DNA of 64,000 nt from an uncultured Fibrobacter sp. GTDB taxonomy: Bacteria > Fibrobacterota > Fibrobacteria > Fibrobacterales > Fibrobacteraceae. The notes under the pieces were generated by a model. It was not told where the DNA came from. It did not search any database and saw only the letters and a program-made list of their open reading frames with translations. Where the stretch lies: contig NZ_CAMVDO010000016.1 of the NCBI RefSeq assembly GCF_947166265.1, forward strand, positions 1 to 64,000. Reading direction: 5' to 3'. Positions 2,572 to 18,355 of the stretch are shown one piece after another. A program made the translations under genes and the position numbers. The first letter of the stretch is position 1, and every line of letters begins with the position of its first letter.

Positions 2572-2976
2572 TTAGAATTGCTGTGCGTTGACGTTCGGCA
2601 TGGGGGCGCTTTGTGCGGGGGCGTTTGCGGCACGGAGCTTCATGCATTCGTTCAGATTTGTTCTTGTCTTACCCATGACAAGGCAGGTAGTGTAGCTTTC
2701 GTTGTCCTTGATGTACTTTGTCTTTGCGACCAACTGTCCACCAACGGCGAATTCAAATGTGCCGTGCTTCATACCCTTGGCGCAGGAACCCATAACATCG
2801 ACCTGCTGACCGAAGTCATCAACAAAGTGCCACTGAGCGTGCTTTACATGAAGCCCTGCGCAGGTGTAAGGAGACATTTGCTCTTCCATGGATTGAACTT
2901 TTCTGTAGCTTCCGCCGCAGGAGGTGAGTAAAGCTGCAAGGCCGCAGAGGGCGAGTGTGAGAGTGATCTTTTTCAT
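2572..2976 (-). CDS. Small lipoprotein of unknown function
   Basis: The 134-residue product begins with a lipoprotein signal peptide: MKK, a hydrophobic stretch and the lipobox LLTSC with the modified Cys at about residue 20. The mature part has several cysteines and no motif that I recognise. The start codon overlaps the stop of the upstream acyltransferase gene as ATGA, with AGGA just before it, so the two are translationally coupled. Its position inside the leftward pigment-cluster transcript suggests that it is an envelope component linked to the polyene lipid, but that is inference from context only. Confidence 0.75.
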   Translation of the reverse strand: MKKITLTLALCGLAALLTSCGGSYRKVQSMEEQMSPYTCAGLHVKHAQWHFVDDFGQQVDVMGSCAKGMKHGTFEFAVGGQLVAKTKYIKDNESYTTCLVMGKTRTNLNECMKLRAANAPAQSAPMPNVNAQQF

Positions 2977-3758
2977 AATTTTTCCTGTTTATGTTCTTGT
3001 TCTAAAACTTCTTTCATCTTGTCGGTGAGCAAAATGGCGCTCCTGGACATCGGCATGTCCTTGTAGGGTGCTACCGGAATGTTCGGCAAGACCTTCAAAT
3101 TGTACATGTAGCGTTCGGTCGGGTGGAACTCCAGCATCTTGTCTTCTTTGCGGAGTCCGATTTTTTCGTTACCGCCAAAGTAGATTGGCACTACGTCCGC
3201 CCCGGCGAACAGTGCAAAGCGTGCCGCCCCTTTCTTGAAAAACCAGGGCTCACCCGGCTTGGATCGGGTCCCTTCGGGGAAGATGATGAGGTTGTTGCCG
3301 TCTTCGATCATCGACTTCTTGGCGCGTTCCATCTGTTCTTCGAAGGGGAGCGTGTTTGGAATATAGAGGTCGCGAATAATCAGGGAAATGAATTTGTTCT
3401 GGATAAGCGCCCCTTTCACGATGCAGTTTGCGTTCGGAATGAGCGAAATCAGAATCACCACGTCTAAAAGCGAGGGGTGGTTTGCAATGACGACTTTTCC
3501 CTGGATGTTTTTCAGGAGTTCGCGGTTCTCGACGCTTAGGCGCATGGCGCCGGTCACTTCGATGTACTTGACAAAGAACTTGAAGAACTTGTTGACGAAC
3601 CTTCGTGAAATCACGTTGAAACGTTTTTCGGAAAATCCGGCAAGTACATGGAACAGGGGCAAAAGCGTCGTGCCAAGAATCAGGCTGCTGATGCCGAAAA
3701 CGGCAAAAGACGACAGCTTGGACACAAGACGCCGGATGTATTTAATCCGTCGGATCAT
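2973..3758 (-). CDS. 1-acyl-glycerol-3-phosphate acyltransferase family protein (PlsC-like)
   Basis: The 261 residues carry the two key blocks of the LPLAT/PlsC family: the catalytic NHPSLLD (NHx4D) near residue 91 and FPEGTRSKPG near 158. A hydrophobic N-terminal segment (about 15-35) suggests inner-membrane association. Family members move acyl chains onto lysophospholipids or related alcohols. Aryl-polyene clusters often contain one or more such acyltransferases, thought to attach the polyene or a fatty acid to a lipid carrier, so this may be a dedicated paralogue rather than the housekeeping PlsC. It overlaps the gene before it (ATGA) and has GAGG upstream of the ATG. Confidence 0.85.
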   Translation of the reverse strand: MIRRIKYIRRLVSKLSSFAVFGISSLILGTTLLPLFHVLAGFSEKRFNVISRRFVNKFFKFFVKYIEVTGAMRLSVENRELLKNIQGKVVIANHPSLLDVVILISLIPNANCIVKGALIQNKFISLIIRDLYIPNTLPFEEQMERAKKSMIEDGNNLIIFPEGTRSKPGEPWFFKKGAARFALFAGADVVPIYFGGNEKIGLRKEDKMLEFHPTERYMYNLKVLPNIPVAPYKDMPMSRSAILLTDKMKEVLEQEHKQEKL

Positions 3759-4369
3759 GCAAGCCTCTGCTGAATGAAGGCAATCGCTTCTTCGGCGGCC
3801 GTTGCAAAGTTCCCTTCGAGGGGAGTCTCGTCAAGAACCTTACCGCCCTTGCTTGCATCGGTCGTGAGGCGAAGCGCTAATGCGCATACGGCGTTCGGGT
3901 ACGGTGTTCCTGCCACGGGAGCGTAGGTTTCGGGAATCTTCTCGTCAGCGAAGATGAATACGCGTTCTGAATCGGAGCCCGCCTTGAGGGCGGCCATGCA
4001 GTCGCGGAGTCCTTCGCGGAAAGCCTCTTTCCCGGAGAACACGGCGGAGTAGCCTGCGGTGTTTTTCTCTAGGATAGTGGCGTTTGCAATCGAGGCGTTG
4101 AACACCGAAAGGCTGAAGTGGGCCGGCGAAACGTTCCCCGTATCGAGGAGCGCTTGCGATATCTTGAGCTGCTGCGTGATTTCGCCATACTGCGAGGCGA
4201 ATGTCACCTTGCAGGGCGACATGTCCTTACTAATGGCGGCATTCACGTACACAACCATCTTCGACAGCTGGCTTAGGCGCCTGCGCGTAAGCATCGGCAC
4301 GAACTTCACGTCGGGGAGCGGTTGCTCCTCGCTAGGAATAAAGTATTCGGCGCGTTCGATATAGATCAT
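3755..4369 (-). CDS. Ketosynthase-like chain-length factor of the aryl-polyene cluster
   Basis: The product resembles the short beta-ketoacyl synthase N-terminal-like family (PF13723) found in aryl-polyene and flexirubin clusters, where it partners a true ketosynthase as chain-length factor. Family-like features include FSLSVFNASIAN near residue 85 and the C-terminal part with NAVCALALRL. At about 204 residues it is half a ketosynthase, and it lacks the Cys-His-His active site. A GTG 18 bases upstream (4387) would extend the frame, but AGGGAA sits 6 bases before the ATG at 4369, so I prefer the ATG. It lies between a methyltransferase and a PlsC gene. I judge the family assignment good and the exact role inferred. 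Confidence 0.78.
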   Translation of the reverse strand: MIYIERAEYFIPSEEQPLPDVKFVPMLTRRRLSQLSKMVVYVNAAISKDMSPCKVTFASQYGEITQQLKISQALLDTGNVSPAHFSLSVFNASIANATILEKNTAGYSAVFSGKEAFREGLRDCMAALKAGSDSERVFIFADEKIPETYAPVAGTPYPNAVCALALRLTTDASKGGKVLDETPLEGNFATAAEEAIAFIQQRLA

Positions 4370-4397
4370 TTGATTTTCCCTAACCACTAATCCTTAA

Positions 4398-5489
4398 TCA
4401 CTTGATTCTGAAACGGAGCAGAGAGTAGCTGTTCGGGCCTACCGTGTGGTGCGCTTCTTTCAGCTCAAAGCCGGCGATTTCGATGGCGTGCTTGAGTTCT
4501 TCGAAGCGGTACATCTTGGAGTTGCCGTTTGCAATGCAGGTGAAGTAGAGCGAGGTTGCCTGGAGCGAGTAGGCGGCAGCCTCGAAACGCTGCTTGTCCC
4601 ACAGCGGTTCGAGCACGTACACGTCGGTTTCGGGAGTGGCGGCCGTGTGAATCTTGGTGAGAATCTTCGTGATTTCTTCGAGCGAGAAGCAGTCGAGGAA
4701 CTGGCTCATCCAGACGGCGTCGGCACCCTTCGGGAATTCGGTCGTTTCGTCGAGGACGTTGCAGGGGACCATGTCGATGCGGTTTTCGAAACCGGCGGCC
4801 TTCGCATTCTTTTCGGCGACGGCAGTCTGGCCCGGGAGGTCGATGATAGAAACCTTCACGTCGGCATTGTACTTGCAGCAGGCGATGGCCCACTTGGCGG
4901 TGTTGCCGCCGATGTCAAAGAGGCGCTTGCAGGGGTTCGAGAAGACGATGGGGAGCGCTTCGGGGAAGGCGAGGTCGGAATAGAAGTGGTCAAATCCGAA
5001 CCAGCTCTTTTTCTGCTGGTCGGTCAGCTGCGACAGCCCCTGGTACACGGTCTTCCAGTTGCCGAGGTGCTTGAGGCCTGCGGGCTTCCCGTCGCGGATG
5101 GCTTCTTGCATGTCCTCTGCCCCCAGGTAGCAGATGTCTTCGGAAAAGTCCATGTTGACTTTCGTCATTTCGTCGCTCATCAGGAAAAATCCGATTTTGC
5201 CGAGCGTAAGCTTGAGGTCGTCCTCCTTGGAATCCTTATGAAGCTTGATGGCCCCCATGCCAAGTCCCATTTCGATCAGAACGCCAATGCCGTAGAGCGA
5301 AATGCCAAGCTTTTGCGAAAGTTCCGAAACGGTAATCCCTTTCTTGCGGGCGCTGCAGATGGCGTCCAGAATCCCCATGTCGCGGAGCGCTTTGGCGGCG
5401 TGGAAGCTGAGGGGGGCAAATGCGATTTTCTGGGCTTCGAACTTTGCGTCGGTAGCCGAAATCTTGTCATTATAGTAGTAGTCGAACAT
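4398..5489 (-). CDS. SAM-dependent O-methyltransferase of the pigment cluster
   Basis: The N-terminal third looks like the winged-helix dimerisation domain of plant-type O-methyltransferases (AAKALRDMGILDAI, then SELSQKLGIS). The C-terminal part is a Rossmann methyltransferase with motif I as RLFDIGGNTAKWA and a following acidic IIDLPG. It would methylate a hydroxyl or ring position of the aryl head group. An in-frame GTG at 5543 gives 18 more residues, but that extension is lysine-rich and overlaps the likely promoter region; the ATG at 5489 has a weak AAGAG before it. The start is therefore uncertain. It is the first gene of the leftward transcript, divergent from the acyl carrier protein genes. 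Confidence 0.82.
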   Translation of the reverse strand: MFDYYYNDKISATDAKFEAQKIAFAPLSFHAAKALRDMGILDAICSARKKGITVSELSQKLGISLYGIGVLIEMGLGMGAIKLHKDSKEDDLKLTLGKIGFFLMSDEMTKVNMDFSEDICYLGAEDMQEAIRDGKPAGLKHLGNWKTVYQGLSQLTDQQKKSWFGFDHFYSDLAFPEALPIVFSNPCKRLFDIGGNTAKWAIACCKYNADVKVSIIDLPGQTAVAEKNAKAAGFENRIDMVPCNVLDETTEFPKGADAVWMSQFLDCFSLEEITKILTKIHTAATPETDVYVLEPLWDKQRFEAAAYSLQATSLYFTCIANGNSKMYRFEELKHAIEIAGFELKEAHHTVGPNSYSLLRFRIK

Positions 5490-5555
5490 AGAACTCTTTT
5501 GTTTAGCTTTATTGATTTTGTCCACAAATTTAGCAATAATCACCGATGCCTGTAC

Positions 5556-5584
5556 TTGACGGTTCTTTTTTTTTAAGTTATTTT
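5556..5584 (+). promoter_or_regulatory. Sigma-70-type promoter for the rightward pigment operon
   Basis: TTGACG at 5556-5561 and TATTTT at 5579-5584 are separated by exactly 17 bases that include a T-rich run. The first acyl carrier protein gene begins 24 bases downstream and has AAGGG before its ATG. This is the only strong promoter-like pair I saw for the whole 14-kb operon. Confidence 0.7.
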
Positions 5585-5607
5585 TGCGCTCAAATTAAGG
5601 GTGAATT

Positions 5608-5877
5608 ATGAACGAATTAAAATCTCGTATAAAAGAAATGATTGTGTCTGCTCTGGAACTCGAAGACGTTACGGCTGCAGATATCGTAGATGACGCTCCT
5701 CTCTTTGGCGAAAGCGAAAAGGGCCTGGGGCTTGATTCTATCGACGCCCTCGAATTGGGGATTGCGGTCAAGGAAAACTTCGGAGTATCTTTCTCTGTGG
5801 TGAACGAAGAAACCAAGAAGCATTTTTATTCTGTGGATACCTTGGCGGCATACATTTCGGCAAATATGCCTAAATAA
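5608..5877 (+). CDS. Acyl carrier protein 1 of the aryl-polyene cluster
   Basis: This 89-residue acidic protein has the phosphopantetheine attachment motif LDSIDALEL, with the Ser near residue 45, and the helical pattern of acyl carrier proteins. It would hold the growing aryl-polyene chain for the ketosynthases, reductase and dehydratases of this cluster. It is the first gene after the promoter at 5556-5584. A second, different carrier follows 11 bases later; paired carriers are the rule in aryl-polyene and flexirubin clusters. No phosphopantetheinyl transferase gene is visible in the window, so activation must rely on one encoded elsewhere. Confidence 0.92.
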   Translation: MNELKSRIKEMIVSALELEDVTAADIVDDAPLFGESEKGLGLDSIDALELGIAVKENFGVSFSVVNEETKKHFYSVDTLAAYISANMPK

Positions 5878-5888
5878 GGGAGTTGAAC

Positions 5889-6146
5889 GTGGAAAAACAA
5901 GCTATTTTTGACAAATTGAAGGCCGCCCTTATCGAAGATTTCGAAATGGACGAAGCCAAGGTGACTCCTGAAGCTCGCCTTTATGAAGATCTTGAACTGG
6001 ACAGCATCGATGCCGTTGACCTGATCGTGAAGCTCAAGTCTCTCTTGCCGACCAATATTGACCCTGAAGTGTTCAAGACTGTACGTACCGTGCAGGACGT
6101 CGTTGACGCTATCTACAATCTGATCCAGAACGCGGAAAACAAGTAA
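5889..6146 (+). CDS. Acyl carrier protein 2 of the aryl-polyene cluster
   Basis: This 85-residue carrier has the attachment motif LDSIDAVDL. A TTG at 5883 is in frame but touches the ribosome-binding site AAGGGAG (5876-5882), whereas the GTG at 5889 lies 6 bases past it, so I choose GTG. Its stop overlaps the next ATG as TAATG, which implies translational coupling to the large fusion gene. The sequence differs clearly from the first carrier, so the two are likely specialised, for example one for starter loading and one for elongation; that division is inference. Confidence 0.9.
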   Translation: MEKQAIFDKLKAALIEDFEMDEAKVTPEARLYEDLELDSIDAVDLIVKLKSLLPTNIDPEVFKTVRTVQDVVDAIYNLIQNAENK

Positions 6147-8482
6147 TGAAAACGGTGGCGGGGAAGGTAGTCTTTGCCACCTTTTCTGTTCTCTATCCTG
6201 CGCTCGTTTTTTGCGGGCTTGAATTCTGGGGGCTTTCTCCTCGCCGATTGAGCTTGCTGCTCATCGGTCTTGCTTTTGTACATTTCTTTAATGTGACGCG
6301 GGGGCGTTCCGGGGAGAGGAAAGGTGGAAATTTCGACAGGACGAATGTCGTTAAGGGGCTTGCCCTTGTCGCATTGATGCTTTTGTGCGGGGGACTCGCC
6401 TTTTTTGCAGATAACATAATGTTTCTCAAGTTCTATCCTGTAATGGTGAGCTTGAGCCTTCTTTCTTTCTTTGCCTTTTCCCTTTGGAAAAAGCCCAGTT
6501 TTGTTTTCCGTTTGGCAAATCTTGGGGACAAGACGCTAAGGACATCTCCGGAGCGCTTTTTCGTGGAGCGTTACTGTGACCGGGTGACTTTGGTATGGTG
6601 TATATTCTTTATTCTGAACGCCTCTATCGCTTTTGCCACTGCATTGGTGGGTAGCGACCGAATCTGGTCCCTGTACAACGGTTTAATCTCCTATATTTTA
6701 ATCGGCATTTTGTTTGCCGTAGAATTTATGGTCCGTAAAATGATGCAAAAAAAGATGCACTCCTATATACCCGTCTGTGATTTGCAGCGGGACAGCCGCC
6801 CCGAAGGTTCCGTCGTCTGCTTTGACGGAGAAAATGTAAGGACGTGGGCTGAATTTGTCGGTGACGTGTCCAAGGTGCGCCGCTTCTTGGAATCGAGCGA
6901 AAATCGCCCGTGGATTCTTCATTGCGAAGATTCCTACTTCTTTATCGTGGCTCTCCTTTCGATGTTGCAGAGTGGCCGGAAGGCGATGGTGACTGCGAAC
7001 CGTCAGGAAGCCTTTATCAGGGAAATTAAGAAACCCGAATACGGCTTTATTACCGATACCCCGTTTGGCGATGCGTCTGCCGGTGCGGTGCAGATCCAGG
7101 ATATTTTGAATGGCCCCGCTGTCGAGACTTTGTGGAATTCCTTTGATAAAAATGATGCCCAGATGGTGATGTTTACCTCGGGTACGACGGGTGAACCCAA
7201 GTCCGTGCCCAAGCGTTTTTCACAATTTGAAAATGAACTGTTTGAACTGGTGAAGGTCTTTGGTGATGACTGGGTGGGCCGTAAGGTCTATAGCACGGTG
7301 AACCACCACCACATTTACGGTCTCCTGTTTACGGTGCTTCTGCCGACTGCGACGGGGCTACCGTTCCGCAGGCACCGTATCGACTATCCGAGCGAACTTA
7401 CAAGCCTTGCCGCAGAAAAGGCGGTCATTGCATCGAGCCCGGCCTACTTGAAGCGCCTTGCCGCCGATACCGACAAGCCGATCGATTTCAAGTGCACTCC
7501 GATTATCTATTCGTCGGGTGGCCCGCTCCCGGAAGAGGTTGCACGCAAGTGCGAGGGCATCACGGGTTACTGGACCACTGAAATTTACGGCAGTACCGAA
7601 ACCGGTGGCATTGCCTACAGGCAGTCCAAGAACGGCCCCATCTGGAAACCGTTCGAAGTCTGCAAGATGAGCATCGGTGAAAACGATTGCCTGAACGTGA
7701 AGTCGAGCTATATTCTGGAACCCGAGGGCTTTACCACGGGAGACCTCGTGGAAATTTACGAGGATGGCCGTTTCCTGTTGAAGGGCCGCGCCGATTCTAT
7801 CGTGAAAATCGAGGAAAAGCGTATTTCGCTTCCGGAAGTGGAAAACCGCCTGAAGCAGACGGGACTGGTGCAGGATGTGCGCGTGGTTCCGATGGTGGGT
7901 AGTCGCCAGTACCTGGCTGCGGCGATCGTGCTGAATGCCGAAGGCTGCGAAAAGTTCAAGGGCCTGCCGAAGCTCGAAATCAACAATTTCTTCAAGAAGC
8001 ACCTGATGCAGTTTATCGAGAATACGGTTTCGCCCAAGAAGTGGCGCTACCTCGAAGAACTCCCGCAGGACACGCAGGGAAAAATCAAGATGCGCGATAT
8101 CCAGGCGCTGTTCGGCATTCCCGAAAGCCCGAATTTCAAGATACTGAAGATGCATCGTGAACCGGGCGCGGTCAAGCTGAAACTGGTTTTCCCCGAAACA
8201 AGCGATTTCTACAGCGGGCATTTCCCGACGTTCAAGTTGCTGCCTGCGGTGGCGCAGGTGGACATGGCGGTGATGTTCGGCCATGCGCTTCTCGGAACGT
8301 CGCAGACGGTGCAGCGCATCCAGCGTACCAAGTTCAGCTATCCGATTCTGCCGGGGGTCCCTGCGATTCTTGAAATGACCTACAAGGCCGAAACGGCCAA
8401 GCTTGCTTTCTCCTATACGCTCGAAGAGGGCCGTGCCCTTTCCGGCGGAACGCTCGTGATGACGGAGGCCACCGATGCGTGA
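6146..8482 (+). CDS. Three-domain fusion: membrane domain, AMP-dependent acyl/aryl ligase, hot-dog dehydratase
   Basis: Residues 1 to about 200 form roughly six hydrophobic segments, resembling the small membrane protein (COG4648) that is a separate gene in many aryl-polyene clusters. Residues about 230-640 are an AMP-forming ligase with the P-loop-like FTSGTTGEPKS near 342 and YGSTETGG near 480; this part would activate the aromatic acid starter as an adenylate and load a carrier protein. Residues about 670-778 look like a FabZ-type thioester dehydratase, with SGHFPTFKLLPAV near 690 supplying the catalytic His. All three functions are usually separate genes, so one 778-residue polypeptide is unusual. 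It is coupled to the carrier before it (TAATG), and the next gene overlaps its end by 8 bases. Confidence 0.85.
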   Translation: MKTVAGKVVFATFSVLYPALVFCGLEFWGLSPRRLSLLLIGLAFVHFFNVTRGRSGERKGGNFDRTNVVKGLALVALMLLCGGLAFFADNIMFLKFYPVMVSLSLLSFFAFSLWKKPSFVFRLANLGDKTLRTSPERFFVERYCDRVTLVWCIFFILNASIAFATALVGSDRIWSLYNGLISYILIGILFAVEFMVRKMMQKKMHSYIPVCDLQRDSRPEGSVVCFDGENVRTWAEFVGDVSKVRRFLESSENRPWILHCEDSYFFIVALLSMLQSGRKAMVTANRQEAFIREIKKPEYGFITDTPFGDASAGAVQIQDILNGPAVETLWNSFDKNDAQMVMFTSGTTGEPKSVPKRFSQFENELFELVKVFGDDWVGRKVYSTVNHHHIYGLLFTVLLPTATGLPFRRHRIDYPSELTSLAAEKAVIASSPAYLKRLAADTDKPIDFKCTPIIYSSGGPLPEEVARKCEGITGYWTTEIYGSTETGGIAYRQSKNGPIWKPFEVCKMSIGENDCLNVKSSYILEPEGFTTGDLVEIYEDGRFLLKGRADSIVKIEEKRISLPEVENRLKQTGLVQDVRVVPMVGSRQYLAAAIVLNAEGCEKFKGLPKLEINNFFKKHLMQFIENTVSPKKWRYLEELPQDTQGKIKMRDIQALFGIPESPNFKILKMHREPGAVKLKLVFPETSDFYSGHFPTFKLLPAVAQVDMAVMFGHALLGTSQTVQRIQRTKFSYPILPGVPAILEMTYKAETAKLAFSYTLEEGRALSGGTLVMTEATDA

Positions 8483-9245
8483 ACCTAAGATGAAACCCGA
8501 GGATATGAAATTTTGTGCCATTGTGCCGGTGTACCGTCACGAAAAAGCTTCGCGGAATGTCGCCGAGACGCTTGCCGCACAAAATCTCGCCGTGATTCTC
8601 GTGGATGACGGCAACACCCCCGAAGGTCACGAAATCCTGGAGCAGATTGCAAAGGACGTTCCGAATACGACGCTTGTGACGCGTGAAAAGAACGGCGGCA
8701 AGGGTGCCGCTGTCATTAGCGGTCTTGGGAAGGCTTACGAAATGGGCTTTACGCACGCGCTTCAGGTGGATGCCGACGGTCAGCATGACATGGATGCGAT
8801 TCCGTTCTTTCTGAAGGCCGCCAAAAAGCATCCGTTCGATCTGGTCGCCGCAATGCCCCAGTATGACGGCTCTGTGCCCAAGGCGCGTGAACAGGGAAGA
8901 AAGATTACGAATTTCTGGGTCGCGGTCGAAACGCTTTCAAAGACGATTCCCGATTCCATGTGCGGTTTCCGCGTGTATCCGCTCCAGTTCGTGTGGCCGG
9001 TCGCCAAAAAGATCCGTACCTACCGCATGGGTTTCGATATCGAAATCCTGGTGCGTCTTTCCTGGGCGGGCCTCAAGATGTATTTCTACCCGATCAAGGT
9101 GAAGTACCCCGAAGATGGAGTCTCTAATTTCCGTGCCTTCGGCGATAATGTTGAAATTTCCTGGACGCATACCAAGCTCTGCCTTGGAATGCTGATTCGT
9201 TCCCCGATGATTTTGGGCCGTCGCCTTTTCAAGAAGAAAAAATGA
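8475..9245 (+). CDS. Family 2 glycosyltransferase
   Basis: The 256 residues have a GT-A fold signature: an N-terminal CAIVPVYRHE, AVILVDDGNTPEG, a GGKGAAV block and the DxD metal-binding motif QVDADGQHD near residue 97. No clear membrane segment is seen, so it likely acts on the cytoplasmic face. In aryl-polyene clusters a family 2 glycosyltransferase is found beside or fused to an acyltransferase; here they are two genes overlapping by ATGA. It is proposed to add a sugar that links the polyene to its lipid carrier. GGAGG 6 bases upstream fixes the ATG at 8475. Confidence 0.9.
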   Translation: MREPKMKPEDMKFCAIVPVYRHEKASRNVAETLAAQNLAVILVDDGNTPEGHEILEQIAKDVPNTTLVTREKNGGKGAAVISGLGKAYEMGFTHALQVDADGQHDMDAIPFFLKAAKKHPFDLVAAMPQYDGSVPKAREQGRKITNFWVAVETLSKTIPDSMCGFRVYPLQFVWPVAKKIRTYRMGFDIEILVRLSWAGLKMYFYPIKVKYPEDGVSNFRAFGDNVEISWTHTKLCLGMLIRSPMILGRRLFKKKK

Positions 9246-10222
9246 ACTCCGTGAAAAGTGAATCGCCGCAGTGGTACGAAGTGAAGGAAGTTGGCGGAAG
9301 CCTTTGGCATTTCCGTTTTATGCTGTGGATTACCTGCCACCTGCCGCTCCGTATTGTTGAAGTCTGCACGGCGATTATCTGCTTTTTCTTTTGGATGGGG
9401 GCGACCCCGGTGCGTGAACGCTCGGCCGCTTACCTAAAGCGCCTGTTTGCGGTGCGCGGGGAACGCATGCCGGTGCTTGGAACGTACAAGCACGTGCTTT
9501 CGTTTGCTCTTTCGATGATTGAAAAACTGCTCGGATGGCGCGGTGCCATCAAGCTCAATCAGGTGGAAACCCAGGGCGACGACCTGAATCTTCTGGTCGA
9601 ACAGCTTGACCGTGGCGAAGGCGCCTTTTTGTTGTGTTCGCATCTTGGAAATATGGAAATGCTCCGTTCCTTGACGGGACACGGTGAAATCCACACTCAC
9701 AGACAATTCAAGGTTTTTCCGGTCGTCGATTTTTCGGGAACCTCCAAGTTCAATGCGCTGCTTTTCGAGCTGAATCCGGACCTGATGAACTCGGTGCTCG
9801 ACGCCAACAAGATTGGCGTGGATTCTGCCGTGTGGATGAAAGAGCAGATTGCAGGCGGTAACCTGGTGGTGATTGCGGGGGATAGAACCTCCGCCAATTC
9901 CACGGACCGAAACGTCGAAATGGAATTCCTCGGCGAAACGGCCAGTTTCCCGGAAGGCTCCTTTACGTTAGCGAGCGTCCTGCACGCTCCCATTTATTTT
10001 ACGTTCGCCATTCGAAAGCACGACTTTGATATTCGCTCGCCCTACGAAATGCACGTGGTGAAGGCGAAGACGTCTTTTGACTGTAGCCGCAAGGAGCGTC
10101 CGGAAAGGATTCGGATGCTTGTGCAGGAATACACGGAACTTTTACAGAAATTGTGCCTGAAACATCCTTACCAGTGGTACAATTTTTACAATTTTTGGAA
10201 AACTCAAAATAAAGGATTGTAG
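9242..10222 (+). CDS. LpxL/HtrB-type lipid acyltransferase
   Basis: The product belongs to the lipid A lauroyl/myristoyl acyltransferase family. It has an N-terminal membrane anchor (about residues 20-50), the catalytic HLGNME (Hx4E/D) near 137 and the block VVIAGDRTS near 215. The usual enzymes put a secondary acyl chain on lipid A at the inner membrane. In this operon, straight after the glycosyltransferase, it more likely transfers the polyene or a fatty acid to a glycolipid anchor. At 326 residues it has normal family length. The start overlaps the preceding stop (ATGA). Confidence 0.88.
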   Translation: MNSVKSESPQWYEVKEVGGSLWHFRFMLWITCHLPLRIVEVCTAIICFFFWMGATPVRERSAAYLKRLFAVRGERMPVLGTYKHVLSFALSMIEKLLGWRGAIKLNQVETQGDDLNLLVEQLDRGEGAFLLCSHLGNMEMLRSLTGHGEIHTHRQFKVFPVVDFSGTSKFNALLFELNPDLMNSVLDANKIGVDSAVWMKEQIAGGNLVVIAGDRTSANSTDRNVEMEFLGETASFPEGSFTLASVLHAPIYFTFAIRKHDFDIRSPYEMHVVKAKTSFDCSRKERPERIRMLVQEYTELLQKLCLKHPYQWYNFYNFWKTQNKGL

Positions 10223-10225
10223 ATC

Positions 10226-11752
10226 ATGAAGACTGTCGTTATTGGACCGGAAAAGTTGACCATCGAACAGGTGGTGGCCGTCGCAAAGCGCGAGGTGCCC
10301 GTGGAATTGGATTCGTCGTCCAAGTTCCAGAAGAAAATCGATGCGGGTGCGGCTTTTTTGGATGAAGCTCTCGCGAAGCACGGTGGCATTTACGGCGTGA
10401 CGACGGGTTACGGCGATTCCTGCACGCAGGTGGTGCCGCCCGACCATTACTACGATCTTCCGGTGAACCTGACCCGTTTCCACGGTTGCGGAATGGGGAA
10501 CTATTTCGACGAAGAGACGACGCGTGCTATTATGGTGGTTCGCCTGAACACCTTGGCCCGCGGCTTTTCCGGCGTGAGCTACGCCTTGTTGAAGATTATC
10601 ATGGATTTCCTGCAGAACGACATCTTGCCGCTTATTCCGCAAGAAGGTTCTGTGGGTGCTAGCGGCGACCTGACTCCGCTTTCTTACTTGGCGGGAGCCC
10701 TGATCGGTGAACGCGATGTGCTTTACAAGGGTGAACGTAGGCCGTCGAAGGATGTGATGGCTGAACTCGGCATTACGCCGCACCGTTTCCGCCCGAAGGA
10801 AGCGATTGCCATTATGAACGGAACTGCCGTGATGAACGCTGTCGCTTGCATGGCTTTCTCCCGCGCACAGTATTTGGCCGACCTCTCTTGCCGCATTACG
10901 GCGATGAACACGATTGCCATGAAGGGGAACGCTTACCACTTCTATGAACGTCTGTTTGCAGTGAAGCCGCATCCGGGCCTGATCACCGCCGCAAAGAAAA
11001 TGCGCGATGCCATGAACCTGGAAGTCGAGAAGAACGTGGTTCCCGAAAAGATACAGGATCCGTATTCCCTGCGCTGCGCCCCGCATGTGGTGGGCGTGTT
11101 CTACGATTCCGAACCGCTGCTCCGCCAGCTGATTGAAATCGAAATGAACAGCGCAAACGATAATCCGATTATCGACCCCGAAACCGAGAATATTTTCCAC
11201 GGTGGACATTTCTACGGCGGACATATCTGCCTTGCAATGGATACGCTGAAAAACATTGTCGCAAACTTTGCCGACCTTCTGGACCGCCAGCTTGCAACGA
11301 TTGTGGATATCAAGTTCAACCGCAACTTGCCGCCTAACCTTTCGGGAAGCCAGGGCGAATTCTCGCTCAACCACGGTTTCAAGGCGGTGCAGATTGGCGT
11401 GTCGTCTTGGACTGCAGAAGCTCTGCATAACACGATGCCGATGAGCGTATTTAGCCGCTCCACCGAATGTCACAACCAGGACAAGGTGAGCATGGGCACC
11501 ATTGCCGCTCGCGACTGTATCCGTGTGATTGAACTTACCGAACAGGTGGCTGCCGCGGTACTCCTCGCCGCGTCCCAGGCTCTCCGCATTCGCCTCGAAC
11601 GCGGTGAAATTTTCGACGTGCGCATTGCCGGTGTCCGTGCCACTTACGACCAGGTGTTCGAACACTTTGCACCTCTCGCTTGCGACCGTCAGCTCGAAGG
11701 CGACCTTCGCAAGACGCTCCAACTGATTCGCGAAAAGCATTACGCTGTTTAA
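10226..11752 (+). CDS. Aromatic amino acid ammonia-lyase (HAL/TAL family)
   Basis: This 508-residue enzyme carries the ASG tripeptide (residues 145-147, context VGASGDLTPL) that cyclises into the MIO prosthetic group, and the catalytic Tyr loop GVTTGYG near 57-63. Family members remove ammonia from His, Phe or Tyr. In a pigment cluster the expected reaction is Tyr to p-coumarate, the starter of flexirubins and some aryl polyenes. At the selectivity pair, aligned by eye within TRFHGCGMG, I read Phe-His rather than the His-Leu of well-known tyrosine lyases or the Ser-His of histidine lyases, so the substrate is not certain. AAAGGA lies 9 bases before the ATG. No other histidine-degradation gene is nearby, which argues against hutH. 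Confidence 0.9.
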   Translation: MKTVVIGPEKLTIEQVVAVAKREVPVELDSSSKFQKKIDAGAAFLDEALAKHGGIYGVTTGYGDSCTQVVPPDHYYDLPVNLTRFHGCGMGNYFDEETTRAIMVVRLNTLARGFSGVSYALLKIIMDFLQNDILPLIPQEGSVGASGDLTPLSYLAGALIGERDVLYKGERRPSKDVMAELGITPHRFRPKEAIAIMNGTAVMNAVACMAFSRAQYLADLSCRITAMNTIAMKGNAYHFYERLFAVKPHPGLITAAKKMRDAMNLEVEKNVVPEKIQDPYSLRCAPHVVGVFYDSEPLLRQLIEIEMNSANDNPIIDPETENIFHGGHFYGGHICLAMDTLKNIVANFADLLDRQLATIVDIKFNRNLPPNLSGSQGEFSLNHGFKAVQIGVSSWTAEALHNTMPMSVFSRSTECHNQDKVSMGTIAARDCIRVIELTEQVAAAVLLAASQALRIRLERGEIFDVRIAGVRATYDQVFEHFAPLACDRQLEGDLRKTLQLIREKHYAV

Positions 11753-11764
11753 ACGGAGGCGTTT

Positions 11765-12202
11765 ATGGCCGAAAAGAAACTGAAAACGACTGTGGAATTC
11801 AGGGTAGAATTCTACGACGTGGACTCCATGAAGGTTGCCTGGCATGGCAACTATGTGAAGTACATGGAGGTGGCCCGCTGCGCGCTCCTTGCCAAGATGA
11901 AGTACGACTACTTTGCCATGGAAAAGAGCGGTTTTGTGTGGCCTGTCGTTGACATGCATATCCGTTACCTGCGCCCGATGATCTTTATGCAGAAAATCCG
12001 TGCCGAGGTGACGCTCGAAGAATACGAGGTATGCATGAAACTTTCGTACAAGTTCTTTGACGCCGAAACGGGAACGCTTTTGTGCAAGGCGGAAAGTATG
12101 CAGATGGCGGTGGACATGAATAAGCGTGAATCGCTCATGGTCTGCCCCGCCTACTTTATCGACAAGGTTCGTGCGGCACTTGCTGCCGAGGAAAACGGAT
12201 GA
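11765..12202 (+). CDS. Hot-dog acyl thioesterase (4HBT/YbgC type)
   Basis: The 145 residues match the 4-hydroxybenzoyl-CoA thioesterase superfamily: FYDVDSMKVAWHGNYVKYME near residues 17-36 contains the Asp and the HGNY active-site region. It would release or proofread aryl-polyene or aromatic acyl chains from the carrier proteins. GGAGG lies just upstream, 12 bases after the ammonia-lyase stop. The gene overlaps the LolA-like gene by ATGA. Thioesterases of this type are standard members of aryl-polyene clusters. Confidence 0.88.
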   Translation: MAEKKLKTTVEFRVEFYDVDSMKVAWHGNYVKYMEVARCALLAKMKYDYFAMEKSGFVWPVVDMHIRYLRPMIFMQKIRAEVTLEEYEVCMKLSYKFFDAETGTLLCKAESMQMAVDMNKRESLMVCPAYFIDKVRAALAAEENG

Positions 12203-12897
12203 ACCCCATTTTTAAAAGCGTCGTAGTCTCGGTTTTTGCCCTTGGAATTCTTGGGGGGACAGCCTTTGCGGCAGGTTCTGCTTCGGATGTTTTCAAGAAA
12301 CCGCTGACTGAAATCTCGAAGCCTGCCTTGCAGGAATCGATTGCCGTGCTTACGGCAAGCCCCCTGACGGTTGGAAATTTCAAGCAGACCCGCAACATCA
12401 AGAAACTGAATCGCGAGTTTGTCTCGACGGGCTCCTTTGCGATTTCACGCGAGGAGGGTATTGTCTGGGATACGGAAAAACCGTTCCCGTCGGTGCTGTG
12501 GGTTGGCGACAATGCCATTGTGCAGTGGGATGTGAACCGTAACGTCAAAAAGACGATGGCCGCGAAGGACAATCCTGTATTCGCCGAATTTTCCGGTACC
12601 ATCCAGTCGGTGTTCTCGGGTAAGTTCGACGAGCTCGCCCGGAATTTCGACATCTATTTCGATGATTCCCGCAAGGGATTTTGCGTGGGGCTTGTTCCCA
12701 AGGAACGTACCGTGGCCCGCATTATCGCGTCTATCACCCTCGAAGGGGTAAACGAACTTGAAAAGGTGTCGATTGTCGATGGCGAACAGAACCTGGTGAC
12801 ATACGAATTTACGGGACAGGCGCATTTTAAGGACCTTGATTCCGTGGAAGGGACTTTTAAGGACTTGGCCCAGAAATTCAAGAATGTGAAAAAATGA
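12199..12897 (+). CDS. LolA-like periplasmic lipid/lipoprotein carrier
   Basis: A cleavable signal peptide (residues about 1-25, ending in an AFA-type site) precedes a domain of about 205 residues resembling the outer-membrane lipoprotein carrier fold, with the typical opening FKQTRNIKKLNREFVSTGSF and the IVWDTEKPFPS stretch. Such proteins in aryl-polyene clusters are thought to carry the polyene lipid across the periplasm rather than lipoproteins. It is coupled by overlaps on both sides (ATGA) to the thioesterase and the MMPL exporter, which supports a joint transport role. Confidence 0.85.
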   Translation: MNPIFKSVVVSVFALGILGGTAFAAGSASDVFKKPLTEISKPALQESIAVLTASPLTVGNFKQTRNIKKLNREFVSTGSFAISREEGIVWDTEKPFPSVLWVGDNAIVQWDVNRNVKKTMAAKDNPVFAEFSGTIQSVFSGKFDELARNFDIYFDDSRKGFCVGLVPKERTVARIIASITLEGVNELEKVSIVDGEQNLVTYEFTGQAHFKDLDSVEGTFKDLAQKFKNVKK

Positions 12898-15221
12898 GTC
12901 CTGAGTCGAAAAAGATTGTTTCGGTTATCATATGGGCGGTATTTCATATTGCCCTTATTTCGCTTGGACTGTTGCAACCGTGGAAGGTGGAGTCGGACCT
13001 TTATTCGGTTCTGCCGGACTCCAATGAATTGAGGAATGTCGCCGAGGCGGAAAAGGCGCTGAGCGCCCGTTCGATGAGGAACATTTCTGTTCTTTTGGGG
13101 CATCATGATTTTGTTGCGGCAAAGGCAGCCGCATTTGCGCTGGAGTCGAGCTTTGCTCGGGATTCCTCGTTTGCCGAGATTCGGTTGCGAGTCAATGATG
13201 CGACTATGCAGCAGATGCGGAATTTCTATTACGATTACCGCAACGTTCTGCAGGGGCGCCCGGTATGCGACTTGCTGAAAGCAGGCGATGCGTCTGCATT
13301 AAAGAGCATGGCGCTAGAAAAGGTCTATGGCGCCTTTACGCTTGCAGACTTGAGTCAAATCGAAGAAGACCCGTTTTTGCTGGGGGCGGAATCGTTTGAT
13401 CATTTTACGCTTCATTCCCAGCTGATGGGTGGGCGCTTTACGTTGCGGGAGGGGGTGCTTGCCGCCGAAGATTCCTCGATGACGTACGTGATGTGGAGTG
13501 CCGCTCTTTCTCCGAACGTTTCGACAATGGCCTCTGACGACCATGTGCTTGCTCGCCTCGATCGCGTGTTGGATTCCTTGCAGGTTGAATACAAGGGACT
13601 ACGTATCGAAAAGTCGGGCGTTCCGTTCCATAGCTACGAAAGTTCGAAAAATGCGAAGTCCGAGGTTGCCTGGATTTCGGGCGTTTCGATGGCGCTCATT
13701 CTGCTTTTGTTGCTTTGGGCGTTCCGCACTCCTGTTCCGATTGTCTGTACGCTTGCAACCATCGGTGTTGCCGTGTGCGCGGCCCTTTCTGGAACGTGGG
13801 CCGTGTTCGGAAATATTCACGTGTTTACGTTCGTTTTTGGAACAAGCGTGATTGGCGTAAGCATCGATTACGCGATTCATTTCTTTACCGAGTGGAAACA
13901 CGGAACCTCGAAAAATGGTCTCGAAATTCGCCACCACATATTCAAGGGACTTTTGCTCGGTTTCATGACGACGGAACTCAGCTATATCGCGCTTACGTTT
14001 GCCGATTTTCCCTTGCTTCGCCAGATGGCTGTTTTTTCGATTGTCGGACTTGCGAGTTCCTTTGCGACGATTCTCTTGTTGTTCCCGAATTTGTCGCATT
14101 CTGGGGCGCGTTCAACGAAAACGCTACTTCCGATGCGGCTTCCTCAAGTATTGTTGTCTCTTTACGACAAGCTTTCTCCCCAGAAAGTCCGCTATTTGCT
14201 GCTAGTCCTGTTGCTTGCGATTGCACCTGGAATATTGCTGCTTGATATCCATACGGATATGCGGACTCTTTATTCCATGAGCGAAAGCCTCAAGCGTTCC
14301 GAGGCCCTGAATGCGCGTCTCAATAACCTGGGAATTTCTCCGAATTACTTTATTGTAGAAGGCGCTACGGAACAGCAACTCTTGGAAAACGAGGAACGTC
14401 TTAGGGATAGGCTCGAAAAAGCGAAAGAGGATTCCCTGCTTACGGGGTATTTGGCGACTTCTACCTACATTCCTTCGGTCAAGACACAGAAGGAAACTTT
14501 CGAGGCGGTAAAGAAACTGCGCGATTCGGAGGCGTACCATGAACTGCTTCGTGACTTGAACCTTGCCTCGGATTCTCTTTTTGCGCGAAATTTGGCCTTG
14601 AAACCGGAATTTCTTACGCCGCAGTCGGATATTCCCGAATCGTTCAAGAGCATCCTTTCGATGATTTGGATTGGAGAGGTTAACGGTAAGTATTACAGCG
14701 CCGTGTTCCCGCTCCATGTTTCGAAGAACTTTGCTATCGATCAGTATGCAGAGGGAATGCCTTATGTGTATGCGGTAAACAAGATGGAAAACGTGAATGC
14801 GACGTTGACGGAACTTTCGAAGGTTGCCTTGATGCTTGTGGCGGTGGCCTATTTGGTCGTGTTTATTGTACTTGTCTGTGTCTATAAGTTCTTTACGGCG
14901 CTCAAGGTGATTCGAGCCCCGGTGATTTCTAGCCTTCTTATAGCAGGCGTTTTCGGCTATTTGGGACTGCCGTTCAACTTCTTTGCGATAGTGGGGGTAA
15001 TCCTTACGCTTGGAATCGGCATTGACTATGCGCTGTTCTTTAAGGAGGGCGGCGAACGGAGCGTGACGACAGCCCTTGCCGTGATGCTTTCGGCCTTGAC
15101 GACGCTCATTTCTTTTGGCAGTCTATCTTTCAGCAGCTTTGTCCCTGTTGCGACATTCGGCTTTTCGGTGCTCCTCGGTATTTTTTGCTGCTTTGTCTTG
15201 TCGCCATTCAGTAGAAGGTAG
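12894..15221 (+). CDS. MMPL/RND-family lipid exporter
   Basis: This 775-residue inner-membrane protein is an MMPL-type transporter: a first membrane helix, a periplasmic domain of about 200 residues, five helices, and then a repeat of the same plan. The matching halves show GVSIDYAIHFFTEW near residue 321 and GIGIDYALFFKEG near 708, the Asp-Tyr pairs that relay protons in this family. It is expected to extract the finished polyene lipid from the inner membrane and hand it to the LolA-like protein encoded just before it. Confidence 0.92.
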   Translation: MSPESKKIVSVIIWAVFHIALISLGLLQPWKVESDLYSVLPDSNELRNVAEAEKALSARSMRNISVLLGHHDFVAAKAAAFALESSFARDSSFAEIRLRVNDATMQQMRNFYYDYRNVLQGRPVCDLLKAGDASALKSMALEKVYGAFTLADLSQIEEDPFLLGAESFDHFTLHSQLMGGRFTLREGVLAAEDSSMTYVMWSAALSPNVSTMASDDHVLARLDRVLDSLQVEYKGLRIEKSGVPFHSYESSKNAKSEVAWISGVSMALILLLLLWAFRTPVPIVCTLATIGVAVCAALSGTWAVFGNIHVFTFVFGTSVIGVSIDYAIHFFTEWKHGTSKNGLEIRHHIFKGLLLGFMTTELSYIALTFADFPLLRQMAVFSIVGLASSFATILLLFPNLSHSGARSTKTLLPMRLPQVLLSLYDKLSPQKVRYLLLVLLLAIAPGILLLDIHTDMRTLYSMSESLKRSEALNARLNNLGISPNYFIVEGATEQQLLENEERLRDRLEKAKEDSLLTGYLATSTYIPSVKTQKETFEAVKKLRDSEAYHELLRDLNLASDSLFARNLALKPEFLTPQSDIPESFKSILSMIWIGEVNGKYYSAVFPLHVSKNFAIDQYAEGMPYVYAVNKMENVNATLTELSKVALMLVAVAYLVVFIVLVCVYKFFTALKVIRAPVISSLLIAGVFGYLGLPFNFFAIVGVILTLGIGIDYALFFKEGGERSVTTALAVMLSALTTLISFGSLSFSSFVPVATFGFSVLLGIFCCFVLSPFSRR

Positions 15222-15246
15222 AAATTTTTAAATTTGTGGCACTTTT

Positions 15247-15930
15247 ATGAATTTTTTGATGACAAAGATGAAGTCCTTGCGGAATTTGAAGGCCCCTGCC
15301 TGCACTGAGCATGGCCGAAGTGAGCTTGCCGAAGGGCTGCGATTGTTCCTTGGCGCATTTTTGTTACTCTTTTTAGTCGCCTGTCACAATACGCATCAGG
15401 TGCCGGGGACGACTCCTGTATATTATTCCGATGACCGCGCCGTTTCGCTGTTGTCGACATCTGCGATGACCGAAAGCATTGACATGCCGCAGCATATTGC
15501 CGGAAAATTCAGGAAACCCGACGGAACGACCGATTTGTTTGAGGCGGATTCCTGGGTAAGGGCGAACGACAGCATTTTATCGATTGTGCTTTTTTCGGGT
15601 TTCGGAACAACCATCGGCGAAATTAGCTACTACCGCGATTCCGTAAAGGCGGAAAGTTCTCTGATCGATGTGGAAAAGCTGAAGGCGGAATACATGCTTG
15701 CCGACTTTCAGGTCTGTTTTTATCCGTTCGAAGCTCTTCGCCAAAATTTTGAACAGGCCGGATTTGATTTTTCCGAGACTCGCACCGGTTCCCAAAATAC
15801 GGATTTTGTGCGTACGCTCGCCGAAAAGGGGGTGACGATTGCCGTTGCCCGCAAGAATGGAAACGAAATTGAATTTGTAAACGAACTGCGCGGTTACAGT
15901 TACCATATTACGTTAGGAGATGCAAATTGA
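15247..15930 (+). CDS. Lipoprotein of the pigment cluster, DUF3261-like, with repeat-derived N-terminus
   Basis: The product has a hydrophobic stretch and lipobox LFLVAC followed by about 180 residues that resemble the DUF3261-type lipoproteins accompanying MMPL exporters in aryl-polyene clusters. Oddly, the N-terminal 50 residues before the lipobox include a copy of the dispersed palindromic repeat (15302-15337), which encodes the polar stretch CTEHGRSELAEG just ahead of the hydrophobic core. No good ribosome-binding site precedes the ATG at 15247; a TTG further on (about 15343) follows AAGGG and would remove the repeat-encoded residues, so the true start is unsure. The stop overlaps the next TTG start (TTGA). 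Confidence 0.75.
   Translation: MNFLMTKMKSLRNLKAPACTEHGRSELAEGLRLFLGAFLLLFLVACHNTHQVPGTTPVYYSDDRAVSLLSTSAMTESIDMPQHIAGKFRKPDGTTDLFEADSWVRANDSILSIVLFSGFGTTIGEISYYRDSVKAESSLIDVEKLKAEYMLADFQVCFYPFEALRQNFEQAGFDFSETRTGSQNTDFVRTLAEKGVTIAVARKNGNEIEFVNELRGYSYHITLGDAN
15302..15337 (+). repeat. Dispersed CTGAGC…GCCGAAGG repeat inside the lipoprotein gene
   Basis: The sequence contains CACTGAGCATGGCCGAAG and GAGCTTGCCGAAGGG, the same words found intergenically at 60478-60500, 62634-62660 and 30240-30260. Here it is read in frame without a stop, placing a charged peptide in the signal-peptide region. Confidence 0.7.
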
Positions 15931-17123
15931 GAAAGCCCTTGTATATTAACGACTTTGCTTTTCACTGCATTTTGGGGGGCGAAAAGGAATCGGTTTTCGA
16001 TAAATTAAAGAATGGCGTCCGTGGCGAATTCACCACCTACGATGTAGCGGGTGTGATGCGCCCTGCCGCGACAATCGATCCTGCGACTTTAGCTCCGGTG
16101 ACGGAACCTGGCTTTGATAACCGTGTAAACAGGCTTTCGCAGGCGGCGCTTTCGCAGATGGAAAAGTCGATCGTTGCTGCTATTCAGAAATATGGCGCCG
16201 ATCGCATAGGCATATTTATCGGGTCTTGCGACAATGGCTCCGAAGCATCGATGAATGCTCTCAAGAGTTTTAAGGAAACGGGGGCTTTTCCCGAAGGTTA
16301 TGTCCTAGATTATCAGGCGGCAGATTTTCCGGCGCGTTATATTGCAAAGCGTTATGGCATTACGGGAATGCTTTCGGTGCATTCTACGGCGTGTGCCTCC
16401 AGTGCGAGCGCTTTTGTTTCTGCCCGCAACAATATTTATGCCGGTAACTGTGATGCGGCTATCGTGGGCGGTGTCGATATCGCTTCGCAGTCGGTGATTC
16501 TGGGCTTTGCCTCGCTCGAGGCCATGTCCGATAAGCCGACGAATCCGTTTAGCGCAAACCGTACAGGCCTTACCCTTGGCGATGCGGCGGCTTTTTTCCT
16601 GGTGACTCGCGAAAATTTACCGGACCTTGCAACCGAAGACTGCAAGAATCTTTCGGTGGTGGGCTTTGGCGAAAGTGCCGATGCAGACCACATCACGGCT
16701 CCCCGCGCCGATGGCGAAGGGGCTTTCCTGGCGATGAAAGCCGCCCTTGCCGATGCAGAACTCGATGCTTCTTCGATTGGCTACGTTAATTTGCATGGAA
16801 CAGGAACTCGGCTGAACGATTCCATGGAAGCGATCGCCGTGAACCGTCTGTTCGGTGAAAATACACCGGCAAGTTCCACGAAGGCGCTGACGGGACATAC
16901 TCTTGGTGCGGCTGGTGCACTGGAAGCTTCGTTCTGCTGCCTTGCGCTCCAGAATAGGGGCGTTCTTCCGGCGCATCTGTTCGATGGATGCGAAGACCCG
17001 AAACTCCCGAAGGTTCACCTGGTCAAGTCGGGAGAACAGGCAACGGAGCCCTTCAAGTATTGTATCAGCAACTCGTTTGCTTTTGGCGGTTGCAACGTGT
17101 CTTTAATTATCGCGAAGGAATAA
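15927..17123 (+). CDS. Beta-ketoacyl-ACP synthase (aryl-polyene ketosynthase A)
   Basis: This is a full 398-residue ketosynthase with the nucleophilic Cys in STACASSASA (near residue 155), the first His in NLHGTGT (near 290) and the second in GHTLGAAG (near 322). It would condense malonyl-ACP units onto the aryl starter. The start is a TTG: AGGAGA at 15915-15920 lies 6 bases before it and it overlaps the preceding stop as TTGA. A second ketosynthase gene lies at 18355, and the half-length chain-length factor is on the divergent arm, so the cluster has the usual three ketosynthase-family proteins. Confidence 0.92.
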   Translation: MRKPLYINDFAFHCILGGEKESVFDKLKNGVRGEFTTYDVAGVMRPAATIDPATLAPVTEPGFDNRVNRLSQAALSQMEKSIVAAIQKYGADRIGIFIGSCDNGSEASMNALKSFKETGAFPEGYVLDYQAADFPARYIAKRYGITGMLSVHSTACASSASAFVSARNNIYAGNCDAAIVGGVDIASQSVILGFASLEAMSDKPTNPFSANRTGLTLGDAAAFFLVTRENLPDLATEDCKNLSVVGFGESADADHITAPRADGEGAFLAMKAALADAELDASSIGYVNLHGTGTRLNDSMEAIAVNRLFGENTPASSTKALTGHTLGAAGALEASFCCLALQNRGVLPAHLFDGCEDPKLPKVHLVKSGEQATEPFKYCISNSFAFGGCNVSLIIAKE

Positions 17124-17126: not shown

Positions 17127-17600
17127 ATGAGTACGGTAGAATTTCCGACAAGAGAATTGGTTTCTGAACTGGTTCCGCATAAGGACAAAATGCTTCTGCT
17201 CGACCGGGTTAATTATCATGACCTGAACGAAATTGTGATCGAAACGGAAGTGGATATCCACAAGGACTGTATGTTCTTCAAGGAAGACCTGCAGGGGGTT
17301 CCTTCGTATGTGGCGTTTGAATATATGGCCCAAAGCATTTCTGCCTTGTCCGGAATTTATGGACGTACGCTAGGACAAAAGCCCAAGGAAGGCTTTATCA
17401 TGAGTGTGTCGAACTGCAAGGCCGAAGTCCCTGTTTTCAAGTCGGGAGATGTTGTTCGAATCTGGGTGCACCAGACGATGCGTGTCGACATGGCCGTCAC
17501 CTTTGAGGGCAAGGTTTTTGTGGGTGACAATCTTGCGGTCTCGGCTTCGCTTTGCACAGTCGAAGTGGACGACCCCACCTCGATTCTGAAGATGAATTAG
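17127..17600 (+). CDS. Hot-dog beta-hydroxyacyl-ACP dehydratase of aryl-polyene type
   Basis: The 157 residues resemble the dehydratases of aryl-polyene clusters, with LVPHKDKMLLLDRV (residues about 15-28) and GVPSYVAFEYMAQSISALSG (about 57-76), the central hot-dog helix. It removes water after each ketoreduction and so creates the conjugated double bonds. A second dehydratase-like domain is fused to the ligase at 6146-8482; in characterised aryl-polyene systems two such proteins work together. AAGGAATAAAG lies just upstream of the ATG, 3 bases after the ketosynthase stop. Confidence 0.85.
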   Translation: MSTVEFPTRELVSELVPHKDKMLLLDRVNYHDLNEIVIETEVDIHKDCMFFKEDLQGVPSYVAFEYMAQSISALSGIYGRTLGQKPKEGFIMSVSNCKAEVPVFKSGDVVRIWVHQTMRVDMAVTFEGKVFVGDNLAVSASLCTVEVDDPTSILKMN

Positions 17601-17626: not shown

Positions 17627-18355
17627 ATGGAAAATAAGAAGAGTGTTTTGATTACTGGCGCAAGTGGCGGCATCGGTTCTGCCATTGCTAAGGCTGTCGC
17701 ATTGGCGGGTTACGAAGTCGTGGCGCATTACAATAGGAATGCAGCTCCTGTCGAACAGCTTGCAAACGAAATTCGTGAACAGGGGGGCTCTATTCGCCTG
17801 CTTCAGTTCAATATCCGCGACCGTGAACAGTGCAAGGCTGTACTTGAAAAGGATATCGAAGAAAACGGCGTCTATTTTGGCGTGGTGACCAATGCGGGTG
17901 TCTGTGCCGATACGGCTTTCCCTGCCATGACCGATGAATATTGGGACAAGGTGATCGACACGAACTTGAATGGCTTTTACAACGTACTTCACCCGATCGT
18001 GATGCCGATGTGCCGCAAGCGTCGTGGACGCATCGTGACGATTTCGTCGGTGTCGGGGGTTATCGGTAACCGTGGCCAGGTGAACTACAGTGCTTCCAAG
18101 GCGGGGCTCATTGGGGCGACCAAGGCTTTGGCAACAGAGCTTGCTAGCCGTGGCATTACGGTGAACAGTGTCGCTCCGGGTGTCATCGAAACGGAAATGA
18201 TCAAGGATGCTCCGCTCGACATGATTTTGCCCGCTATTCCGATGAAGCGCGTAGGTAAACCCGAAGAAGTAGCCGCGACGGTCGTGTTCCTGCTTTCGGA
18301 AGGGGCCGCCTACATCACACGTCAGGTGATTTCTGTGAATGGGGGACTTGCTTAA
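17627..18355 (+). CDS. 3-oxoacyl-ACP reductase, short-chain dehydrogenase family (FabG-like)
   Basis: This 242-residue protein has the NADPH-binding GASGGIGSA (residues 12-20), NAG near 90 and the catalytic triad Ser (ISSVSG, about 141), Tyr and Lys (YSASK, about 153-157). It reduces the beta-keto group after each condensation. The frame is open upstream to a GTG at 17552, but that would overlap the dehydratase gene, and the family start matches MENKKSVLITG, so I use the ATG at 17627. Its stop overlaps the next start as TAATG. Confidence 0.92.
   Translation: MENKKSVLITGASGGIGSAIAKAVALAGYEVVAHYNRNAAPVEQLANEIREQGGSIRLLQFNIRDREQCKAVLEKDIEENGVYFGVVTNAGVCADTAFPAMTDEYWDKVIDTNLNGFYNVLHPIVMPMCRKRRGRIVTISSVSGVIGNRGQVNYSASKAGLIGATKALATELASRGITVNSVAPGVIETEMIKDAPLDMILPAIPMKRVGKPEEVAATVVFLLSEGAAYITRQVISVNGGLA

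Follow-up and report, generated by a model that had tools for sequence, protein, structure and literature searches.

Translational fusion of ApeG-, ApeH-, and ApeI-like domains in an aryl-polyene cluster of Fibrobacter

The best-matching described aryl-polyene (APE) cluster is that of Escherichia coli CFT073 (apeA to apeR), in which ApeG, ApeH, and ApeI are encoded by three genes, ApeJ is a single protein, apeB, apeC, and apeD lie in the same direction, and an ammonia-lyase is absent. In Acinetobacter baumannii, ApeI is fused to the C terminus of ApeH, and ApeI and ApeP form a heterodimer with a single active site (PMC8041823). Xenorhabdus ApeH loads an acyl carrier protein (ACP) directly with an aryl acid (PMC8253772), and the same paper cites the in vitro reconstitution of core APE synthesis with nine Xenorhabdus enzymes. 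ApeG (COG4648) is annotated as a pyrophosphatase and has been proposed to power export or transport (PMC8253772). Two further systems bear on the locus described here. Flexirubin clusters carry an ammonia-lyase (the tyrosine ammonia-lyase FlxA) in a cluster of APE type, and the inner-membrane septation and envelope protein YciB/IspA (PF04279) has been linked, with DcrB, to membrane fluidity and lipoprotein maturation in work cited in PMC9487459.

The window analyzed here, a 64,000-nucleotide stretch from an uncultured Fibrobacter sp., contains a full APE cluster at 2973 to 19578 (Table 1). It has the same genes as E. coli CFT073 in nearly the same order, and all of them except the ammonia-lyase have a counterpart there by phmmer. 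The locus encodes two ACPs, the ligase, a ketosynthase-chain-length factor pair, an initiating ketosynthase, a ketoreductase, the ApeI/ApeP dehydratase pair, a thioesterase, acyltransferases, a LolA-like carrier, and RND export. The apeB-apeC-apeD genes are divergent on the left and are followed by apeE, apeF, the fusion gene, a two-gene apeJ, the ammonia-lyase gene, and apeK to apeR. The LolA2_flexi and FlxA models match proteins of the cluster, in all cases below the curated cut-offs. The apeC product is short (210 residues versus 240 in E. coli) and lacks an NCBIfam match. The glycosyltransferase-acyltransferase ApeJ of E. coli is divided here between two genes (8475 to 10222), a change opposite to that seen in the fusion. 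Beside the cluster, at 87 to 1007, lies a gene for a FISUMP (Fib_succ_major) domain protein, which is typical of Fibrobacter.

Table 1. Genes of the aryl-polyene cluster and domains of the fusion protein, with coordinates in the window (phmmer E values are against the E. coli CFT073 ape proteins)
Feature	Coordinates	Strand	Evidence
apeD, lysophospholipid acyltransferase	2973..3758	-	phmmer to ApeD, 1.2e-34
apeC, chain-length factor (short)	3755..4387	-	phmmer, 4.9e-23
apeB, methyltransferase	4398..5543	-	phmmer, 1.2e-105
apeE, acyl carrier protein	5608..5877	+	phmmer, 6.1e-26
apeF, acyl carrier protein	5883..6146	+	phmmer, 2.9e-26; stop overlaps fusion ATG by one base
apeG-apeH-apeI fusion gene	6146..8482	+	open frame, 778 aa; full length conserved in genus
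ApeG-like six-helix membrane domain, residues 1-205	6146..6760	+	phmmer to ApeG (fusion residues 51-203), 1.3e-25; AlphaFold2 pLDDT 90; hhalign to YciB, 96.5%; both termini predicted cytoplasmic
ApeH-like AMP-forming aryl-acid:ACP ligase domain, residues about 210-656, catalytic Lys646	6773..8113	+	Pfam AMP-binding; phmmer to ApeH (fusion residues 216-656), 6.4e-60; motif residues invariant in 80/80
ApeI-like hot-dog dehydratase domain, residues about 664-778, active-site His692	8135..8479	+	PF22818 above cut-off; phmmer to ApeI (fusion residues 673-764), 1.9e-12; PDB 6qsr_A, E 2.8e-13; His invariant in 128/128
apeJ glycosyltransferase half, own gene	8475..9245	+	phmmer to ApeJ 7-242, 8.2e-67
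apeJ acyltransferase half, own gene	9242..10222	+	phmmer to ApeJ 247-551, 1.5e-37
aromatic amino acid ammonia-lyase (tyrosine/phenylalanine/histidine type)	10226..11752	+	PF00221, 518 bits; absent from E. coli cluster
apeK, thioesterase	11765..12202	+	phmmer, 2.2e-37
apeL, LolA-like carrier	12199..12897	+	phmmer, 1.7e-20
apeM, RND/MMPL exporter	12894..15221	+	phmmer, 1.7e-62
apeN, DUF3261/LolB-like	15247..15930	+	phmmer, 2.9e-6, and position
apeO, ketosynthase	15927..17123	+	phmmer, 5.1e-74
apeP, partner dehydratase subunit	17127..17600	+	PDB 6qsr_B, E 3.2e-6; Glu present (FEYMAQ), GHFP His absent in alignment
apeQ, ketoreductase	17627..18355	+	phmmer, 1.2e-86
apeR, initiating ketosynthase	18355..19578	+	phmmer, 1.2e-145

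The preliminary description of this DNA had reported a pigment protein of 778 residues that joins six hydrophobic segments, an AMP-ligase, and a hot-dog dehydratase domain in one frame, and each of these elements was recovered. The frame is single and intact, and the last A of the apeF stop codon (TAA) is the A of its ATG. The ligase motif (TSGTTGEPKS) lies at residues 344 to 353 and the dehydratase motif (SGHFP) at residues 690 to 694. Pfam identified the AMP-binding domain (PF00501, 62.7 bits at residues 332 to 492; cut-off, 29.9) and the ApeI-like domain (PF22818, 42.8 bits at residues 668 to 760; cut-off, 28.5), and the membrane part was found by phmmer as a match to ApeG; each domain thus matches its E. 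coli counterpart. The AlphaFold2 model (pLDDT of 90 for the membrane domain alone and 93 for the whole fusion) shows six long helices joined to the ligase by about 20 linker residues (204 to 222) and, after the ligase and a further linker of some 7 residues, the hot-dog fold. The helices (4-26, 32-56, 65-88, 97-114, 137-168, and 171-203) agree with the hydropathy maxima. Because Lys and Arg are concentrated in loops two and four and C-terminal of the last helix, the positive-inside rule predicts that both ends of the membrane domain are cytoplasmic, which supports a cytoplasmic location of the ligase and dehydratase.

The invariant columns of the ApeG family are present in the membrane domain, and profile comparisons indicate that ApeG is a remote relative of YciB/IspA. 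Aligning 61 ApeG with 18 YciB sequences by hhalign gave a probability of 96.5% over 144 columns, and PF04279 matched 27 of 56 ApeG proteins (best E value, 1e-9). Two ApeG proteins, from Vibrio (30.9 bits) and Acinetobacter (32.4 bits), score above the cut-off of 28.7, and both genomes also carry a true YciB, as ApeG genomes often do; the genomic context of the two families differs. The domain in the window scores 12.4 bits, under the cut-off, and is therefore called a relative rather than a member of the family. A search with PF04279 found no YciB in the window's own genome. The ApeG profile had no match in a sequence search of the PDB, and Foldseek returned no fold for the membrane domain with an E value below 0.001 (best, the Helicobacter pylori urea channel; E value, 0.4). 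TMEM45A was ranked first by VIA-align, but its Z score of 10 falls short of what is trusted for helical bundles, and it was rejected as a fold match.

The ligase domain contains motifs A3, A5, and A8 and the catalytic Lys646 of the last motif, and the motif residues, this Lys among them, do not vary across the 80 sequences compared (80/80). Its best NCBIfam ligase match is 4-coumarate--CoA ligase, below that model's cut-off, and the best folds for the fusion model include MenE and the benzoate and 4-chlorobenzoate ligases (MenE and benzoate-CoA ligases are among the top Foldseek matches, with E values of about 1e-25 to 1e-22). Because no chorismate lyase was found in the window's genome or in nine others (ten genomes), the adjoining ammonia-lyase probably supplies an aryl acrylate as the starter here; the selectivity loop of this lyase (NLTRFHGCG) is ambiguous for substrate specificity. 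The source of the starter cannot be uniform, since the ammonia-lyase is missing from several fusion-bearing clusters, Fibrobacter ones included, and starters may differ between clusters. The lyase and apeB vary independently in Fibrobacter clusters: both are present here, the lyase alone in G005, the methyltransferase alone in G023, and neither in G008 or G013 (C1).

The preliminary description assigned one dehydration step to the fused hot-dog domain, a view that probably needs correcting. The active-site His692 of ApeI is present in 67 of 67 sequences of the set compared for the ligase residues and in 128 of 128 of a wider set, and in all ten distinct copies of ApeP compared the matching His is absent while the Glu of (F/L)E(Y/L)MAQ is kept. 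In the two-chain dehydratase of PDB 6QSR, chain A matches the I domain and chain B the window's ApeP, the solved chains being free proteins that lack a membrane or ligase part. Given these patterns and the A. baumannii heterodimer, the fused domain is probably half an enzyme that pairs with the separate ApeP and acts in every elongation cycle. The arrangement resembles that of A. baumannii in its ligase-dehydratase joint and separate ApeP. It differs in that ApeG, which has its own gene in the Acinetobacter loci surveyed, is joined here to the N terminus.

Across the genus, 48 of 80 genomes encode the fusion protein. The triple frame is unbroken in at least one copy in 46 of these 48; in the other two it is divided between contigs. 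The triple fusion also occurs in four other Fibrobacteraceae genera (g9, g10, g11, and g16). Two Fibrobacter genomes have a second APE cluster in which the copy lacks the membrane part (L041, the same place as G013 C33, and G377 C41). At L041, which has lost the upstream ape genes, the copy begins just past a tRNA-like sequence recognized by eye. These second copies are either truncated or the product of an assembly joint. In two loci of genus g13 (L193 and L194), ApeG is split from the fusion and its frame lacks the first or the middle helices, and the membrane part may be decaying in that genus. A more distant member of the class (G032) has a separate cluster of the Pseudomonadota type.

To place this architecture, 65 loci from outside Fibrobacter and the spirochaetes (mostly Pseudomonadota) were compared, a sample biased toward high-scoring, and hence fused, loci. 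ApeH and ApeI form one protein beside a separate ApeG in 50 of them, 14 have three genes, and in one (Enterobacter mori) ApeG and ApeH are joined. Across the loci surveyed, the genes adjoin in the order apeG, apeH, apeI, and apeG, where separate, lies directly upstream of apeH. The preliminary description held that these are usually three neighboring genes in proteobacteria. Separate genes are indeed found in Vibrionaceae, in E. coli, and in some other bacteria, but the 50 loci of this biased sample already encode ApeH and ApeI as a single protein, as published for A. baumannii. The triple form was seen only in Fibrobacteraceae and Spirochaetota. The unusual joint is accordingly ApeG-ApeH, the ApeH-ApeI fusion being known and common in Pseudomonadota. 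In Enterobacter mori (L105, 4680 to 6962; one genome), ApeG and ApeH share a frame in which about 40 additional residues separate them, apparently an independent joining.

In the family of G041 (Treponemataceae-like genomes), around the spirochaete locus L043, relatives of the fusion were found in 149 of 274 genomes; APE clusters are thus common in Treponema-like gut spirochaetes. Among the 29 best loci examined in this family, 17 encode the triple form and 12 encode ApeG-ApeH with ApeI apart, a difference from the Fibrobacter fusion. In trees of the ligase domain, Fibrobacteraceae and spirochaetes form a single well-supported clade, in which the Treponema fusions, with homologous joints and clusters, are the sister clade; in two basal spirochaetes (L046 and L050), ApeG is separate and ApeH-ApeI is fused. 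The G-H and H-I junctions align closely between Fibrobacter and Treponema, which argues for one origin of the joint. The simplest reading of these sequences is one ApeG-ApeH joining atop an older ApeH-ApeI joining, passed between the phyla by transfer, with later losses in which ApeI was released repeatedly in Treponema and ApeG in one Fibrobacteraceae genus (L193 and L194). The basal rows hint at a spirochaete origin of the fusion, with the root of the tree not fixed.

We therefore consider it likely that the ApeG-ApeH-ApeI translational fusion of this otherwise standard APE cluster serves membrane-held starter loading and the ApeI:ApeP dehydratase. The YciB-like domain would span the inner membrane, both of its termini facing the cytoplasm, and, through its linker, hold the ligase at the inner face. 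The ligase would adenylate an aryl acid, probably the aryl acrylate from the neighboring ammonia-lyase, and load it onto ApeE or ApeF, while the ApeI domain, attached by its short joint, would pair with ApeP, and their one shared His/Glu active site would carry out the dehydration of every 3-hydroxy intermediate. Such an arrangement would hold starter loading and the dehydratase at the membrane, close to lipid attachment by ApeD and ApeJ and to export by ApeM, and the fusion would tighten a partnership that other bacteria encode in two or three adjoining genes. The fusion suggests the inner membrane as the site where pigment synthesis begins, and the membrane-tethered assembly line proposed earlier is plausible. 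Tethering by fusion is dispensable, as the fusion has been lost repeatedly in relatives (ApeI is encoded by its own gene in many Treponema, and ApeG is separate in one Fibrobacteraceae genus and shortened in two genomes), and the in vitro reconstitution indicates that the chemistry is not strictly membrane dependent. A bolder proposal, which we offer tentatively and regard as rather doubtful, is that ApeG is a dedicated inner-membrane platform recruiting the ligase, ApeI:ApeP, and the ACPs to a membrane-bound type II polyketide line; the fusion would then expose a partnership that is noncovalent in other APE bacteria, and YciB might be a similar platform for lipid enzymes.

Several other explanations of the frame were weighed. 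The window's genome is assembled only to contig level, and the preliminary description itself named an error joining separate genes as a possible refutation. We reject such an error, to which we give practically no credence, because the frame recurs in 46 of the 48 fusion-bearing genomes of the genus, near-complete ones included, in other genera, and in Treponema. A far more serious contender, which we would put somewhat short of an even chance, is a neutral merger in which the translationally coupled neighbors apeG, apeH, and apeI lost their stop codons and the product works as the separate proteins do, with no channeling or assembly line. The adjoining order of the three genes, the repeated undoing of the joints, and the opposite change in ApeJ all accord with it. 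It sits less well with the retention of the triple form in nearly every intact Fibrobacter copy and in several genera of the family, or with the apparently independent joint in Enterobacter mori, a hint that G and H work as partners.

Two functional alternatives appear improbable. ApeG could be a pyrophosphatase or an export energizer coupled to the ligase, as the COG4648 annotation and the transport proposal (PMC8253772) would allow and the release of pyrophosphate by the ligase might invite. We disfavor this idea on account of the YciB kinship, seen in the profile alignments and the PF04279 matches, and of the fusion of ApeG to a biosynthetic starter ligase rather than to an exporter; its role may instead be that of a platform or a lipid-facing protein. 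The sole acidic residue among the invariant ApeG columns is Glu193, whereas known pyrophosphatases have acidic metal-binding sites, and no pyrophosphatase family was among the 25 of 63 weak profile matches that were listed. It is comparably unlikely that the substrate of the ligase is a fatty acid or another non-aryl acid and that the product of the locus is some other polyene lipid. Ligase specificity is not reliably read from sequence, and many AMP-ligase families score similarly, but the entire gene set matches a characterized APE cluster, the operon includes an aromatic ammonia-lyase, and the ligase and fold matches given above, the one to 4-coumarate--CoA ligase being below its cut-off, point the same way.

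The domains, the cluster type, and the ApeH-ApeI fusion are already known. A literature search, with patchy reach into subscription papers, found no description of an ApeG-ApeH-ApeI fusion or of a relation between ApeG and YciB, and nothing useful on aryl polyenes of Fibrobacter. The kinship bears on the roles of both proteins, and the natural joining of ApeG to ApeH in two phyla points to a part for ApeG in starter loading, a link for which the fusion offers a single construct for testing. APE clusters are frequent both in Fibrobacter (48/80 genomes) and in the Treponema-like family (149/274), gut anaerobes in which the pigment has been little studied.
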